Assembly: GCF_006442205.1 (NCBI RefSeq)
Contig: NZ_VFVR01000002.1
Coordinates: forward strand, 434,001 to 498,000
DNA from: Mesorhizobium sp. B2-3-12
GTDB lineage: Bacteria > Pseudomonadota > Alphaproteobacteria > Rhizobiales > Rhizobiaceae
DNA length: 64,000 nt
Reading direction: 5' to 3'
In this document: positions 2,963 through 17,614 of the stretch, piece by piece
Numbering within the stretch: the first letter of the stretch is position 1
Layout: each line of letters opens with the position of its first letter
Notes under the pieces: generated by a model
What the model was told of the DNA's origin: nothing
Seen by the model: only the letters and a program-made list of their open reading frames with translations
The model's database searches: none
Position numbers and translations under genes: made by a program

Positions 2963-3381
2963 GCCCAGTTGCCGATCCCTATGCGGACGCGGTGACCTTC
3001 CGATTCGGCGACAGCCCGGAACTGGCCGACGCGTTGCTGGCGCTGGTGCTGTCGGGCCGCAAGACGGCGACCTGCGGCGCGCTGCGCGACTATGGCGGCG
3101 CCGAGCCGGTGCCGGAGGTCGGTCGTCGTGATGTGGTGCTCGACGGCAGCGGCCGCCGGGCCGCCGTCATCGAAACGGTCGAGGCGATCGTGCGGCGCTT
3201 CGACGAGGTCGATGCCGATTTTGCCCGCGACGAGGGTGAAGGCGATTTGAGCTACGAATACTGGCATGACGCCCATCACGCCTATTTTGGGCGCAATGGC
3301 GGTTTTTCGCCCGACATGAAACTGATTTGCGAGCGCTTCCGCCTGGTCGAAGTGTTCGCGCAAGAAGACGCGAAAGTGTGA
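2959..3381 (+). CDS. ASCH domain-containing protein
   Basis: This 140-residue protein starts at a GTG that overlaps the pheS stop (GTGA) and ends 4 bases before pheT, so it is embedded in the pheST operon and translationally coupled. It has the ASCH pattern: an N-terminal [10 protein letters not shown] at residues 32-41 (the conserved K-T pair of the family), a central strand region with [14 protein letters not shown], and a C-terminal [14 protein letters not shown] segment. ASCH proteins adopt a PUA-like fold and are thought to bind RNA or modified nucleosides; some (YqfB) hydrolyse N4-acetylcytidine. A role linked to tRNA or translation fits the position but is inference. Confidence 0.85.
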
Positions 3382-11333: not shown

Positions 11334-12992
11334 ATGGGGGACGACGCGGATGTCATCATTGTCGGCGCCGGTCTTGCCGGGCTGGTCGCCGCCGCCGAGC
11401 TTGCCGAGGCCGGCAAGAAAATCATCATCGTCGACCAGGAGCCGGAACAGTCGCTGGGCGGCCAGGCTTTCTGGTCGTTCGGTGGGCTGTTCCTGGTCGA
11501 TTCCCCGGAGCAGCGGCGCATGCGCATCCGCGACTCCCATGATCTGGCGCTCGAGGACTGGATGGGCACCGCAGCCTTCGACCGGCCCGAAGACCACTGG
11601 CCGCGCAAATGGGCGGAGGCCTATGTCGGTTTCGCCGCCGGCGAGAAGCGTTCCTGGCTGACGGAGCGCGGACTGAAGTTCTTTCCTGTCGTCGGCTGGG
11701 CCGAACGCGGCGGCGGCAATGCCATCGGCCACGGCAATTCGGTGCCGCGCTTCCACATCACCTGGGGCACCGGCCCCGGCGTGCTCGAACCTTTCGTGCT
11801 GCGCGTGCGCGAGGCGCAAAAGCGTGGATTGATCGACTTCAGGTTCCGTCACCGGGTCAATGAGCTGACGCGAACTGGCGCGTCCGTGACCGGCGTGCGC
11901 GGCGAGATCCTTGAGCCGAGCACCGTCGAACGTGGCCACAAGAGTTCGCGCGAAATATCGGGCGATTTCGAGTTTCATGCCCAATCGGTGATCGTCGCCT
12001 CCGGTGGCATCGGCGGCAACCATGAGCTGGTGCGGGCAAACTGGCCCCAGCGGCTGGGCACCGCGCCGAAGCGCATGATCACCGGCGTGCCCGACCATGT
12101 CGACGGCCGCATGCTGGCCATATCAGAAAAAGCCGGCGGCTCGATCATCAACCGCGACCGCATGTGGCACTATGTCGAGGGCATCAGGAACTGGGCGCCG
12201 CTCTGGACCGAGCATGCGATCCGCATCCTGCCCGGCCCGTCCTCGCTGTGGCTCGATGCCCGGGGGAAGCGCCTGCCGGTGCCGCTCTATCCCGGTTTCG
12301 ACACGCTGGGCACGCTGAGCCACATCATGAGCACCGGCTTCGACTATTCCTGGTTCATCCTGACCAAAAAAATCATCCAGAAGGAGTTCGCGCTGTCGGG
12401 CTCCGAACAGAACCCCGACCTGACGGGAAAAAGCTGGCGTCAGGTGCTCGGCCGCGCCACGTCGGGCATCCCCGGCCCGGTCAAGGCGTTCATGGAAAAG
12501 GGCGAGGACTTCATCGTCGAGGCCGAATTGCCGAAGCTGGTGGCGCGCATGAACGCGCTGGCCGGCGGCGAACCGCTGCTTGAGGTCGCAACGGTCGAGC
12601 GCGAAATCCGCGCCCGCGATCGGCAGCTCGACAACCCGTTCTCCAAGGACATGCAGATCACCGCGCTGCGCGGCGCCCGCGCCTATCTGGGCGACCGGCT
12701 GATCCGCACGGCCAAGCCGCACAAGATGCTCGACCCGGCGAACGGGCCGCTGATCGCCGTGCGCCTCAACATCCTGACCCGCAAGACGCTGGGTGGCCTG
12801 CAGACCGATCTCGACAGCCGCGTGCTCGATACCGACGGCCAGCCGGTGCCGGGCCTCTATGCCGTCGGCGAGGCCGCGGGCTTCGGCGGCGGCGGCGTGC
12901 ATGGCTATGCGGCGCTCGAAGGCACGTTCCTCGGCGGCTGTATTTTCTCGGGGCGCGGTGCGGGACGGGCGGCGGCGCGATCGGTGGGGTGA
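11334..12992 (+). CDS. FAD-binding dehydrogenase (3-ketosteroid dehydrogenase/fumarate reductase-like)
   Basis: This 552-residue flavoprotein begins with a dinucleotide-binding motif IIVGAGLAGLVAAAEL (GxGxxG at 11-16) and has the C-terminal FAD signature GLYAVGEAAGFGGGGVHG. The overall pattern matches the FAD-binding 2 family that includes 3-ketosteroid delta-1-dehydrogenase and fumarate reductase flavoproteins. The usual database name for this subgroup is simply FAD-binding dehydrogenase; no steroid-degradation genes are nearby, so a steroid substrate should not be assumed. A GGGGAGG site precedes the ATG. It follows the Gfo/Idh/MocA gene by 40 bases. Its stop lies 65 bases before a copy of the tRNA-Arg 3' end. 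Confidence 0.88.
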   Translation: MGDDADVIIVGAGLAGLVAAAELAEAGKKIIIVDQEPEQSLGGQAFWSFGGLFLVDSPEQRRMRIRDSHDLALEDWMGTAAFDRPEDHWPRKWAEAYVGFAAGEKRSWLTERGLKFFPVVGWAERGGGNAIGHGNSVPRFHITWGTGPGVLEPFVLRVREAQKRGLIDFRFRHRVNELTRTGASVTGVRGEILEPSTVERGHKSSREISGDFEFHAQSVIVASGGIGGNHELVRANWPQRLGTAPKRMITGVPDHVDGRMLAISEKAGGSIINRDRMWHYVEGIRNWAPLWTEHAIRILPGPSSLWLDARGKRLPVPLYPGFDTLGTLSHIMSTGFDYSWFILTKKIIQKEFALSGSEQNPDLTGKSWRQVLGRATSGIPGPVKAFMEKGEDFIVEAELPKLVARMNALAGGEPLLEVATVEREIRARDRQLDNPFSKDMQITALRGARAYLGDRLIRTAKPHKMLDPANGPLIAVRLNILTRKTLGGLQTDLDSRVLDTDGQPVPGLYAVGEAAGFGGGGVHGYAALEGTFLGGCIFSGRGAGRAAARSVG

Positions 12993-13057
12993 AAGGACGG
13001 GCCGCAAAGCCGATATCATCGACCGCGCAACCAACGAATTGAAGTCCAAGGAAGATT

Positions 13058-13075
13058 TGGCGCGCCCGAAGAGAT
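13058..13075 (-). repeat. Distal attachment-site copy of the tRNA-Arg 3' end
   Basis: TGGCGCGCCCGAAGAGAT at 13058-13075 is identical, in the same orientation, to 15780-15797, which is the CCA end, acceptor strand and T-arm of the tRNA-Arg gene. Identity stops abruptly on both sides. No other tRNA sequence is present at 13058, so this is a partial duplicate, as left by site-specific integration into a tRNA gene. Confidence 0.85.
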
Positions 13076-13263
13076 GCAGCGCACGATCCACTTACTCATT
13101 GTTCTGTTTGTCTATTTTCATCGTAACGTAGCATGCCTGGAGCATGAACCCGTGACAAATACCAGTTGCGACCGAGCTGGCACGGACTTCTTGGCAATGA
13201 CTGATTCGGGGTCGGAAGCTGCCGGTCTGCTTTATGCCGCCAGCACGGAAAGCATGCGCGGGC

Positions 13264-14181
13264 TCATGGCGCTTCCCAACCTATGGATGGCTTCAGGGTG
13301 TTGCTGGCTCCACTTTGCCGCCGCGCGAAATCGACGAACGCCTTGAAGGCAGCGGTTGGGTTGCGGCGACTGGGATAGTAGAGGCTCAAGGGAGAGAGCG
13401 TGGGTGTCCAATCTTCAAGCACGCGCACGAGGCGGCCTGCCTCGATGTCGTCGCGGACGTCGAATTCCATCGCCAGAGTGAGGCCGACGGAAGCGAGGGC
13501 GGCGGTACGTGCGAGGCTCGCTTCGTCGAGGGTGACGGGGCCCTCAACGTCGATATGGACCGATTGTCCATCCTTCTCGAACGGCCAACGGTAGATCGCG
13601 CCATCGGGAAGCCGGACGCGGAGACAGGAATGCTCGGCGAGGTCCTGGGGGATCAGGGGCGTCCCGTGCGCTTTCAAATAGCTCGGTGCGCCTACCACAA
13701 CGTTGCGCCGCGCGACACCTAACGGCAATGCGATCATGTCGGCCGGTACAAGGTCTGAGCTACGGACGCCAAGGTCGAAGCCGCCCGCTACAATGTCCAC
13801 CAGGCGACCCTCTGTGACGATGTCGATGTGGACCTGAGGGTGCACGCACAGGAACGGTAGGACGAGCCACGAGAAGATTTCCCGTGCCGCTGTCGGAAAG
13901 GCGTTGATGCGCAGCGTGCCCGAAGGGGTAGCCTGTTGAGAGCGCGCAACCTCCATCGCCTCATGAATGTCCTGCACGGCAGGTGCGACTTGCGCAACGA
14001 ACCGCTGACCTGCCTCCGTTAAGGAGACGCTTCGCGTCGTCCGGTTGAAGAGCCGTACCCCGAGCGTGCGCTCCAGCTTTCCCACCGCATTGCTGAGCGC
14101 GGTCGTTGAAACCCCTAGCTCAAGCGCAGCCGTGCGAAACTTGCCCCGGCGCGCAACCATGAGAACTGCGTTTAAGTCCAT
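13264..14181 (-). CDS. LysR family transcriptional regulator
   Basis: This 305-residue regulator has an N-terminal HTH ([20 protein letters not shown], then [18 protein letters not shown]) and a substrate-binding domain that ends with the LYYPSRR-type tail, like the other LysR protein of this window at 7757. The start at 14181 ([13 protein letters not shown]) gives the normal family N-terminus; the frame stays open upstream but reads into unrelated sequence. It is divergent from the NTF2-like/SDR pair with 146 bases between, so it is the likely regulator of that operon. It lies within the tRNA-Arg-bounded segment. Confidence 0.9.
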
Positions 14182-14327
14182 CAGGCTACTTTGCACAATT
14201 ATCCCGAACTTCGTGATGCGACATCCCGAATTGTCCTGATTATCGCGCCATTTGTCCATCGCTATCTTGGCAGGGCAAACACACTTGCAGCGTTCAAGGC
14301 TGCACCCGCAGTAAGAAGGAAAAAACA

Positions 14328-14657
14328 ATGACGCTCGAACTTCCATCGCCCATCGCCGCGTATGTCGCCGCCAACGCCCGTCTCGATGTGGACGGAATGT
14401 TGAGCCCCTTCACGCGCGACGCGGTCCTTTTTGCTGATGGAGGCCGTCACGAGGGCTACGCCGGAATGCGGGCCTTGTTCGAAGAAGCGGTGATCCCGGT
14501 CAAGGCGATCTTCACGCCGGATGCCGTTCGCCACGAGAACGGTCAGGTCGTCGTCGAAGGCCCTGCCCATGGCGACTTCAGGGGCAGCCCGATCCGCTTC
14601 ACTTACCGCTTCACACTCGAAAGCAACGCCATCAAAGCGCTGGAGATCACGGCATGA
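14328..14657 (+). CDS. Nuclear transport factor 2-like (SnoaL-type) protein
   Basis: This 109-residue protein has a small alpha+beta cone-fold pattern: N-terminal helix [20 protein letters not shown], then [27 protein letters not shown] and a C-terminal strand set ending KALEITA. Members of this superfamily include polyketide cyclases, ketosteroid isomerases and non-enzymatic small-molecule binders; no definite catalytic pair can be assigned. A GAAGGAAAAAAC site precedes the ATG. Its stop overlaps the start of the SDR gene by 4 bases (ATGA), so the two proteins are translationally coupled and probably act on the same compound. Confidence 0.8.
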
Positions 14658-15442
14658 CCATCAAGGCTGATCCGACCGAGTTCACGGGAAAGCGCGTGCT
14701 TATCAGCGGCGGCACCAAGGGTCTGGGCCGCGCCACCGTCGAACGCTTCCTGGCAGGCGGCGCCCGGGTAATCACTTCCGCCCGCGGAACCCTGGAGCCC
14801 ATCGATGGCGTCGAATTCGTACAGGCGGACCTGACCACGGCTGAGGGCGGAGAAGCCCTCGCCAGTGCGGCGCTCAAGCGTCTGGGCGGCGTCGACATTC
14901 TCGCCCATGTGCTCGGCGGCTCGACCACCCCGGGCGGTGGCTTTGTCGCCCTGACTGACGAGTACTGGCTTTCCGAGCTGAACCTGAACCTCCTGGCCAC
15001 CGTCCGCCTCGACCGGCTCCTGATTCCGCAGATGATCGAGCGAGGCAGCGGCGTGGTGGTGCACGTCACCTCCATCCAGTCGGTCCTGCCGCTTCCCGAC
15101 GCGACAACCGCCTACGCCAGCGCCAAGGCCGCACTGCGGACTTACAGCAAGTCCATCTCCAAGGAACTGGGTCCCAAAGGCGTGAGGGTCAACGTCGTCT
15201 CTCCCGGCTGGATCATGACCGAGGGGACCGATGTATTTCTCAAGCGCATCCAAGCCGCCAACGGTGGCACTATCGAGGACGCGCGCCAACTCGTCCTGGC
15301 CGGCCTTGGCGGCATTGCCATCGGGCGCGGAGCCGATCCGTTCGAAGTCGCCGAAGCCATCGCCTTTCTGGCCTCGGATCGCGCCTCTTCGATCCATGGT
15401 TCGGAGCTCGTCGTCGACGGCGGCACCGTCCCGACCGTCTGA
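14654..15442 (+). CDS. SDR family oxidoreductase
   Basis: This 262-residue classical short-chain dehydrogenase has the cofactor motif SGGTKGLGRATV (residues 18-29), the NNAG-equivalent HVLGGS, the catalytic Ser in VTSIQS, the Y-x-x-x-K in TAYASAKAAL, and a C-terminal SSIHGSELVVDGGTVP typical of the family. The usual NAG triplet is replaced by LGG. It probably uses NAD(P)H on a hydroxyl or carbonyl compound; the substrate is unknown. It is coupled to the NTF2-like gene and lies inside the tRNA-Arg-bounded segment, followed by a strong hairpin. Confidence 0.92.
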   Translation: MTIKADPTEFTGKRVLISGGTKGLGRATVERFLAGGARVITSARGTLEPIDGVEFVQADLTTAEGGEALASAALKRLGGVDILAHVLGGSTTPGGGFVALTDEYWLSELNLNLLATVRLDRLLIPQMIERGSGVVVHVTSIQSVLPLPDATTAYASAKAALRTYSKSISKELGPKGVRVNVVSPGWIMTEGTDVFLKRIQAANGGTIEDARQLVLAGLGGIAIGRGADPFEVAEAIAFLASDRASSIHGSELVVDGGTVPTV

Positions 15443-15454
15443 TCAAAGGGACCC

Positions 15455-15487
15455 GTCCACGCTTGGCCGAGTTGGCCCAGCGTGGAC
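15455..15487 (+). terminator. Hairpin after the SDR gene
   Basis: GTCCACGCT (15455-15463) pairs with AGCGTGGAC (15479-15487), and the inner GGCC blocks extend the stem with one mismatch. It lies 12 bases after the SDR stop. There is no clear T-run, so termination efficiency is uncertain. Confidence 0.55.
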
Positions 15488-15779
15488 AAACGTATGAACA
15501 TGCCCTGATGGCCTCAACCTCTGCTCTCCGGCCTCAGGAGCGACGCGGTCGCATGATCACCGGCCGCCGCGCCAAAGCTTGCGCGTTACGCGGGCCAGGC
15601 TGCGCTAACTTAGGTTACACCAGCGATGTCTTCTGGTAGCTGATACCGAATTCGAACCGATTTGCCCGCCGCTGGACCTATTTAATGCGCCCCATTTTAC
15701 GCTCCGTCAGTAGCAAACGTGCAGGTCAGAATGCTGTAAAATCAACGCTTAAAGCGATTTCAAGCACTTGCTTGAAGAG
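15488..15779. other. Non-coding part of the tRNA-Arg island
   Basis: No convincing gene is seen on either strand, and no piece of an integrase could be recognised by eye. Immediately 3' of the tRNA gene is a perfect hairpin, TCAAGCA (15760-15766) and TGCTTGA (15769-15775), which could terminate the tRNA transcript or bind a recombination protein. Confidence 0.6.
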
Positions 15780-15856
15780 TGGCGCGCCCGAAGAGATTCG
15801 AACTCCTGACCCCCAGATTCGTAGTCTGGTGCTCTATCCAGCTGAGCTACGGGCGC
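15780..15856 (-). tRNA. tRNA-Arg (anticodon ACG)
   Basis: The minus strand reads as a full cloverleaf. The acceptor GCGCCCG pairs with CGGGCGC, the D-arm is GCTC...GAGC, the anticodon stem CCAGA/TCTGG encloses the loop CTACGAA with anticodon ACG, and the T-arm is AGGAG-TTCGAAT-CTCTT. The discriminator is G, and a CCA end is encoded at 15780-15782. ACG (read as ICG after deamination by TadA) decodes the common CGU/CGC/CGA arginine codons. Its 3' 18 bases are duplicated at 13058-13075. Confidence 0.96.
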
Positions 15857-16126
15857 GCATCAGGCCATGTTTTCGACGGCCCCGCGATCCGATCCGAAAG
15901 ACCGGCCGCGAATGTGTGCAGTTCCCTAACGACTGAATTTGCGAAAAGCAAGCCGATCCGGCAAAAGTTTTGTCGCAAGCCTGTCATCCAGCGATGCCGG
16001 CGCCGATCCGGCATTCTGAAGCCGCCGTGGGCGGCCTTGATCGAGACGGCGGACGATCAGGCGAGGCCAGGCAGGAACAACGGGCATGGAAGGCGGGGAA
16101 TCCCTTGGGGAAACGGCAGGGAAGCG

Positions 16127-17614
16127 TCAGGCCGGGCGGCGCAGGCTGCCACGGGCCTGGTCGAGGCGCACCGGCTGGTCGGGGATGGTGACGGCGAATG
16201 TGGTGCGCCCGCCGATCGACTCGACCAGTTCCACCGAGCCGCCATGTGCCCGGATCAGTTCGTGGGCGATCGCCAGGCCGAGACCGGTGCCGCCGCTGCG
16301 CGCGGAGCCGCGGAAGGCCGCGAACAGGTTTTCGCGCGCCTTCGGCGGCAGGCCGGGGCCGGTGTCGGTGACGGCGATGCGGCTGACGCTGCCCATGCGC
16401 TCGGCCGATATGGCGAGCCGGCGCACGACGGCGCTTTCGGTATCGGCCGCCATCGCCTGCACCGAGTTGCGGCACAGATTGGTGAGCACCCGGAAGAGCT
16501 GGTCGGAATCGGCATCGACTTCGAAAGCCGCCTCGACGGCGTTGATGAATTCGATGCCCTCCTCGATGGCGAGCAGGCCGTGCACGTCCTCGACCAGCTG
16601 GCGCAGCCGCACCCTGCGGCGTGACGGCGGCGGTTCCTGCGTGCGGCCGTAGTGAAGCACGCCCTCCGAATAGGAGACGGCGCGGTCGAGCGCGCGCAGA
16701 AGCTTGGGCGCGAAAGCCTGCACGGTCGGATCCTTGACCTGGCGCAGGCGGTCCGACATCAGCTGGGCCGAGGCCAGGATGTTGCGCATGTCATGGTTGA
16801 TCTTCGACACGGCGAGGCCGAGGTCGGCCAGATGCTTCTGCTCGGCCAGCATCTTCTGCAGCCGCTCCTGCATCTGCGACAATTCGCGTTCGGCCACGCC
16901 GATCTCGTCGGCGCGGTCGGCTGGATGGATGATCCGCCCGGGGTCGTCGGGTGCCTCGGAGAAGGACAGCATCGAGCGCGTCATGGTGCGGATCGGGCCG
17001 ATCATGATCAGGTCGATCGCGGCGTAAACCAGCATGGCCGTGAACAGCGAGATCAGCAGCGAGACGAAGGCGACGTTGCGCGAATAGATGAGCATGGCCT
17101 TGCGCAAGGAGTAGTCCGGCATGATCAGCTCGAACTCCTTGTCGCTCTCGCCGACCGGCCCAAAGACGCGCAGCATCCTGTCGCCGCCGAAAAACAGCGT
17201 ATCCAGCGCGCCCGTCATGCCCTTGACCATGCCGACGCTGGCGAGATCGATGTGCTCGTCGACCTGTGGCGGCATGTCGGCCACCACCAGAAGCCGCGAG
17301 ACGCCGCCATCACGCACCGCGATCGCCTTGGCGCCGATCGCCATCAGCACGTCATTCTGAGCCGTGCGCGACAGCGAGGTCGACTCGCCCTGCACCAGCA
17401 CGATCGACACGGCGGCGGCCGTGCTCAGCCTCTCCTTGAGCCAGCTCAGCCTATAGCTGGCGATCCAGGGCAGGAAGATCAGCACTTCGGCCAAAAGCAC
17501 GAAAACGATGGTGAGCAGCAGCAGTTTTGTCGACAGTCCGCGCGACAGCGGCACCGTACGGACGGCGTCCGACGCCGTTCCGGTCCCTTCTCCCGCTTGA
17601 CTGGCTTCGCTCAT
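16127..17614 (-). CDS. Membrane sensor histidine kinase
   Basis: This 495-residue protein has a transmembrane helix at about 29-50, a periplasmic sensing region of about 130 residues, a second helix near 181-205, a HAMP-like linker with a coiled coil (EIGVAERELSQMQERLQKML), and a histidine kinase core. The core shows the phospho-acceptor in SKINHDMRNILASAQ, the N box NLCRNSVQAM, the G1 box DTGPGLPPKARE and the G2 box GGTGLGLAIAHEL. No response-regulator gene is adjacent, so the partner is elsewhere (orphan kinase). The H-box, HDMRN, is of the HisKA-variant type seen in rhizobial kinases. The signal sensed is unknown. Confidence 0.92.
   Translation of the reverse strand: MSEASQAGEGTGTASDAVRTVPLSRGLSTKLLLLTIVFVLLAEVLIFLPWIASYRLSWLKERLSTAAAVSIVLVQGESTSLSRTAQNDVLMAIGAKAIAVRDGGVSRLLVVADMPPQVDEHIDLASVGMVKGMTGALDTLFFGGDRMLRVFGPVGESDKEFELIMPDYSLRKAMLIYSRNVAFVSLLISLFTAMLVYAAIDLIMIGPIRTMTRSMLSFSEAPDDPGRIIHPADRADEIGVAERELSQMQERLQKMLAEQKHLADLGLAVSKINHDMRNILASAQLMSDRLRQVKDPTVQAFAPKLLRALDRAVSYSEGVLHYGRTQEPPPSRRRVRLRQLVEDVHGLLAIEEGIEFINAVEAAFEVDADSDQLFRVLTNLCRNSVQAMAADTESAVVRRLAISAERMGSVSRIAVTDTGPGLPPKARENLFAAFRGSARSGGTGLGLAIAHELIRAHGGSVELVESIGGRTTFAVTIPDQPVRLDQARGSLRRPA

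Follow-up and report, generated by a model that had tools for sequence, protein, structure and literature searches.

Positions 13058-15797 of the window (the whole 64-kb stretch of DNA analyzed here) very probably represent an element that was integrated site-specifically and no longer has its recombination gene; the remnant consists of attachment arms plus cargo. Its order is att core, distal arm, LysR/NTF2/SDR cassette, integrase stump, tRNA-side arm and att core (Table 1), with attL and attR still present as a direct repeat at its two ends. An element with a DUF6538-type tyrosine recombinase would have entered the 3' end of the tRNA-Arg(ACG) gene, and recombination at the 18-bp core would have left an exact copy at each end, as suggested by the att copies, the empty sites in relatives and the homologous arms. 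The integrase gene would have sat directly inside the tRNA-side arm, where genome G246, a relative in the family, still has an intact one; in the window only the first 26 codons are left, interrupted by a stop and a frameshift. I regard the result as a clear but ordinary decayed mobile element: 2.7 kb of foreign DNA with a three-gene cassette.

Table 1. Features of the element and its chromosomal flanks, in window coordinates.
Feature	Position	Strand	Remarks
FAD-dependent dehydrogenase (PF00890)	11334..12992	+	Chromosomal flank, distal side
att core, distal copy	13058..13075	-	Exact 18 bp, direct orientation
Distal attachment arm	13076..13219	-	Homologous to distal arm of the G024 25.1-kb island
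LysR-type regulator (PF00126/PF03466)	13264..14181	-	Divergent from operon; ORF to 14346; start uncertain, 14181 or ~14196 by annotated homologues
NTF2/SnoaL-like protein (PF12680)	14328..14657	+	109 aa
Short-chain dehydrogenase/reductase (PF13561)	14654..15442	+	262 aa; above NF005095 cut-off
Hairpin just 3' of SDR	15455..15487	+	Possible operon terminator
Segment between integrase relic and last cassette homology	15543..15618	.	~76 bp
Integrase-gene 5' relic	15619..15695	-	26 codons; TAG at codon 6 (15678-15680); one-base frameshift near codon 16
tRNA-side attachment arm	15696..15779	-	Homologous to arm in G024, G356, G246, L046
att core, tRNA-side copy	15780..15797	-	18 bp, last 18 nt of the tRNA gene incl. 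CCA
tRNA-Arg(ACG), intact	15780..15856	-	ARAGORN; 3' end is the integration target
Sensor histidine kinase	16127..17614	-	Chromosomal flank, tRNA side

The tRNA-Arg(ACG) gene is the only tRNA that ARAGORN finds in the window. The 18-mer TGGCGCGCCCGAAGAGAT, read on the forward strand, occurs exactly at 15780-15797 and at 13058-13075, with a spacing of 2,722 bp; this exact-match search confirms the copy of the tRNA 3' end, in direct orientation, on which the original prediction was built. No third match with up to three mismatches is present in the window (a shuffle control at this threshold gave a mean of 0.33 matches, and two or more in three of 100 shuffles). When the strain's own genome (G000, 6.2 Mb) was searched at up to two mismatches, the exact 18-mer was found at two places only; two further sites carry one and two mismatches, and ARAGORN predicts no tRNA at either. 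A common dispersed repeat, which had been named as one of the observations that should overturn the prediction, is ruled out by there being only two exact copies genome-wide.

An empty site is found in at least three of 146 genomes of the genus (G005, G044 and G108; query 12400-16600). There, on one contig, the FAD-side match runs to query base 676 (window 13075) and the tRNA-side match starts at base 3381 (window 15780). These matches overlap by exactly 18 bases, so the flanks meet through a single copy of the core. The joined flanks of the window are 89-90% identical to the three empty sites, with a largest internal gap of 22 bp, and the tRNA and core are identical. The tRNA gene is left whole and relatives possess the empty site, as for a tRNA-targeted element in the broad sense. 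It had been predicted that such a site should join the 3' region of the FAD dehydrogenase straight to tRNA-Arg; this is the arrangement in all three genomes, which belong to other Mesorhizobium species and support site-specific integration into the tRNA gene.

Named loci were reached through the neighboring histidine kinase, and the best 80 of 144 were considered. A direct FAD-tRNA junction is present in two of these 80, from Mesorhizobium sp. B2-3-4 and WSM3626, whose sequences are those of G108 and G044. Eight others have an FAD match no more than about 10 kb away and separated from the tRNA by other DNA; the remaining 70 show no FAD match in the stretch examined, some of these stretches being short. 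No second att copy at up to three mismatches was detected in the stretches of L035, L066, L067, L096, L097, L100, L108 and L114. The 25 bases directly past tRNA-Arg differ in each of the 79 named loci readable there and, with the FAD gene adjacent in only two of 80, this makes tRNA-Arg(ACG) look like an integration hotspot in Mesorhizobium.

Both termini of the element are homologous to those of a larger island in G024, another species of the genus. The tRNA-side terminus is 81% identical over its first 180 bp, att included, to the DNA straight downstream of the G024 tRNA-Arg, and the distal terminus (13058-13179) is 85% identical over 123 bp, att included, to a place 25.1 kb further on; an additional 29-bp piece of the distal arm (13191-13219, E 0.002) is also shared. 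The distal end of the G024 island is a core copy with one mismatch, past which 396 of 400 bases equal the sequence directly after tRNA-Arg in G027. Without its island G024 thus equals G027, and the 25.1 kb are a clean insertion at the same tRNA-Arg site. In the scanned part, the G024 cargo is metabolic, comprising E1 dehydrogenase and transketolase-type subunits, a ketopantoate-reductase type, a peptidase M24, CobW, ABC transport components and oxidoreductases. No relaxase or conjugation family was found in 15 proteins of this island (five scanned at E 0.01 and ten at E 1e-10; five of the 19 picked ORFs lie outside the scan).

The tRNA-side arm is also present in L046 (Mesorhizobium sp. ES1-1) and in G356, a member of another genus whose contig starts within the tRNA gene, so that only the 3' part of that gene is present. 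In a family draw of 297 genomes, five including G000 match the tRNA-side end (G356 and G360 on the arm, G168 and G298 with short matches off the arm), and four including G000 match the distal end, the other three none clearly on the arm. Among the 146 genus genomes, the tRNA-side end is matched in seven including G000 (G024 on the arm, the others at the cassette end or over 26 bp), and the distal end in G000, G024 and, weakly, G027.

Two further arrangements of these sequences were observed. In G360 (L143:4667-4801, contig C1), a junction of distal arm, core and tRNA-side arm lies ~34 kb downstream of tRNA-Arg, its distal-arm part matching weakly (E 0.008); the order is attP-like and resembles the joint of two tandem elements. 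On contig C29 of G027 (L144:10687-10788), a distal arm leads into a core with divergence beyond ATCTCTTC, which may be an old attachment site or a different one.

The arms carry short motifs that may be recognized by the integrase. TGCTAC occurs as a single copy in the tRNA-side arm (15710-15715), where it is a putative arm-type site. The distal arm has a TGCTCC/TGCTAC pair 11 bp apart (13128-13144), the sole such TGCTNC pair in the window on either strand; on inspection, G024 and G027 also show TGCTAC-like pairs at this spacing. In G246, G356 and L046, the tRNA-side arm contains TGCTAC-like pairs with a 13-bp spacing, one unit of which is missing in the window and in G024. The TGCTNC-type pairs are putative integrase arm sites.

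Just inside the tRNA-side arm, the relic MGRIK*VQRRANRFEF / RYQLPEDIAG aligns with MARMKYVQRRANRFEF / RFPLPDDLAG of the intact G246 integrase, with 13 of 16 residues identical, then a one-base shift, then six of ten identical. In a tblastn search of the 64-kb window with the 30-residue N-terminus of the G246 protein, the relic ranks first (E 6e-5); its own continuation comes next (E 0.18), and the best unrelated match has an E-value of 0.34. The relic thus matches the N-terminus of an intact DUF6538-type tyrosine recombinase, in the expected place and orientation. The prediction that no integrase is visible holds in that the element contains no functional integrase gene, but it overlooked this 26-codon 5' remnant on the reverse strand.

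The integrase gene of G246 encodes 594 amino acids and starts ~100 bp downstream of tRNA-Arg, where the core differs at two bases. Its product falls just below the Pfam cut-offs for DUF6538 (26.9 vs 27) and Phage_integrase (25.8 vs 27.1), and has no NCBIfam match. It is the only intact integrase among the members compared. G024 has a DUF6538-like integrase gene piece just within its arm (E 1.2e-4, below cut-off); this genome, the sole relative with both arms, has a broken integrase as well as a different cargo, and since the G246 contig stops before any distal arm, no intact two-ended member of the family was seen. The N-terminus of the G024 integrase finds only G024 itself among the 146 genus genomes, with no match in G000. 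Of 394 genomes in the family draw it finds seven, strongly in G246, G360 and G363 and weakly in the other four. In L046, an 18-codon stump of the same integrase family (L046:11875-11928, 94% identity) lies beside tRNA-Arg, with transport, regulator and other genes beyond it. G363 (L209:14439-16189) has an integrase relative with an early in-frame stop and a frameshift.

With the full 594-residue query (E 1e-3), a search of 118 tRNA-downstream segments, several per genome, listed G024, L046 and G246, and the window relic was absent. A comparison restricted to the island, with composition correction off, aligned residues 521-579 with the antisense strand of the LysR gene (27%, E 0.001); I take this as a chance match, which means that E-values of this size are not decisive alone in that comparison. 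No paper pairing DUF6538 with integrase was found in a literature search on both terms.

Profile matches confirm the predicted LysR-(NTF2-SDR) cassette within the 2.7 kb (PF00126/PF03466, PF12680 and PF13561). The nearest solved chain by sequence is 4h15 for the SDR, and 4u13, the putative polyketide cyclase SMa1630, for the NTF2-like protein. The three genes are the only ones in the element, and no transfer, relaxase or conjugation gene is found there. The most likely reading of the cassette is a two-gene redox operon under LysR control, which is also carried in other mobile contexts. It occurs elsewhere at 85-89% identity, in four other species of the genus (G094, G019, G076 and G136, at 86-89%) and on Rhizobium and Bradyrhizobium plasmids. 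The ten neighboring proteins scanned place an integrase-like gene next to the G094 copy, and IS4/5-type transposase genes next to those of G019 and G136. The fetched stretches around these four copies contain no match to the arm profiles better than E 0.1, and thus give no sign of the same element. Homology with other copies begins near 13260-13305 and extends no further than 15542, so a deletion or insertion junction probably lies within the ~76 bp next to the relic. Partial matches occur in 274 plasmid records; 15 are at 80-90%, among them Rhizobium sp. NXC14 and Bradyrhizobium plasmids. No record covers 80% of the whole element, as expected if the cassette alone is common. In pNK6a (L212:5269-8589), the cassette is flanked by a directly oriented pair of related DNA-invertase genes, of which the second is shorter and, over the shared part, near-identical. 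A literature search on the cassette returned nothing specific.

That the 18-bp copy arose by chance or belongs to an unrelated repeat, the cassette being native, is extremely improbable. The GC content of the cassette (0.629) is like that of the window (0.636), which agrees with this view; overall composition is hence no mark of foreignness, though this is weak evidence, and the end stretches are lower (0.54-0.55). In the comparison of composition proposed with the original prediction, third-position GC is lower in the LysR (over-long ORF), NTF2 and SDR genes (0.69-0.80) than in the four other genes tested (0.85-0.90). The three species with empty sites contradict a native cassette, as do the homologous arm at each end and the relic of the integrase gene. 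A variant that is compatible with integration followed by loss of the integrase, and which I consider less likely than not, is that the element was always small: an integrase plus cassette of ~4.4 kb would have lost ~1.7 kb of integrase, and no large island would have shrunk. The arms, stump and cassette indeed fill nearly all of the 2.7 kb, with unassigned remainders of ~40-50 bp and 76 bp on the two sides; however, the relative with both ends, G024, is 25.1 kb long with other cargo, and no member with integrase plus cassette was seen.

The prediction had left a choice between a mobilized and a decayed element, and decay is favored by the truncated relic at the expected place. The seven PF00589 integrases found in G000 include no close relative of the relic's integrase, the best match to the G246 protein being 24% over 128 residues of the catalytic part (E 7e-4). 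A trans-acting partner is therefore not evident, and the element is probably immobile now. It is unlikely that it is instead a cis-mobilizable element still in use, whose functional arms would allow excision and movement, in trans or by accretion, once another element brought in an integrase. In keeping with such use, the two core copies match exactly and each arm is conserved when compared with G024, and the G360 junction, weak as its distal-arm part is, suggests that the site is used in tandem elsewhere. The available text of PMC5704250, in which a CIME is an element that has lost its integration and transfer genes and kept attL, attR and cargo, also describes movement of CIMEs with ICEs. 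Continued mobility is at odds not only with the lack of a close integrase in G000 but also with the missing unit of the tRNA-side motif pair, and the two ends recur together in none of the searched genomes besides G024.

The extent of the retained stump varies, with 26 codons in the window, 18 in L046, and only the arm and start-codon region in G356. It is conceivable, but quite doubtful, that reduction to arms plus cargo, with the first integrase codons kept, happens repeatedly in elements of this integrase family. If it were true that rare intact integrases move such arms-only forms in trans, they would constitute a recurring minimal class of cargo carrier at this gene. The decayed element itself is of a known kind and well resolved. 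It is a small case in which the empty site, both arms, the integrase stump and a cargo known from other mobile settings are nearly all accounted for, and it illustrates how a three-gene cassette can stay in place as the residue of a tRNA-targeted island. Scans based on integrase genes would miss such an element.

ICEs and IMEs adjoining tRNA-Arg have already been reported in Mesorhizobium (PMC8627217), and the element described here shares with them the genus and the kind of target gene. In the part of PMC8627217 available, those elements are conjugative or are relaxase-bearing IMEs, the IMEs being at least 5.8 kb, whereas the present element has no transfer gene or working integrase. Lacking relaxase and conjugation genes as well as an integrase of its own, it is neither an IME nor an ICE. 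A second comparison is offered by Dehalococcoides, a bacterium of a different phylum. Some of its ssrA islands are without an integration module and were suggested to be cis-mobilizable, according to the available sections of PMC3146451; they are alike in using a single RNA gene as target and in being integrase-less in some cases, but differ in their serine-recombinase system and their cargo. The closest description is that of a CIME as given in the accessible text of PMC5704250: in its anatomy the element is a CIME, retaining attL, attR and cargo with the integration and transfer genes gone, and the likeness is an anatomical one.
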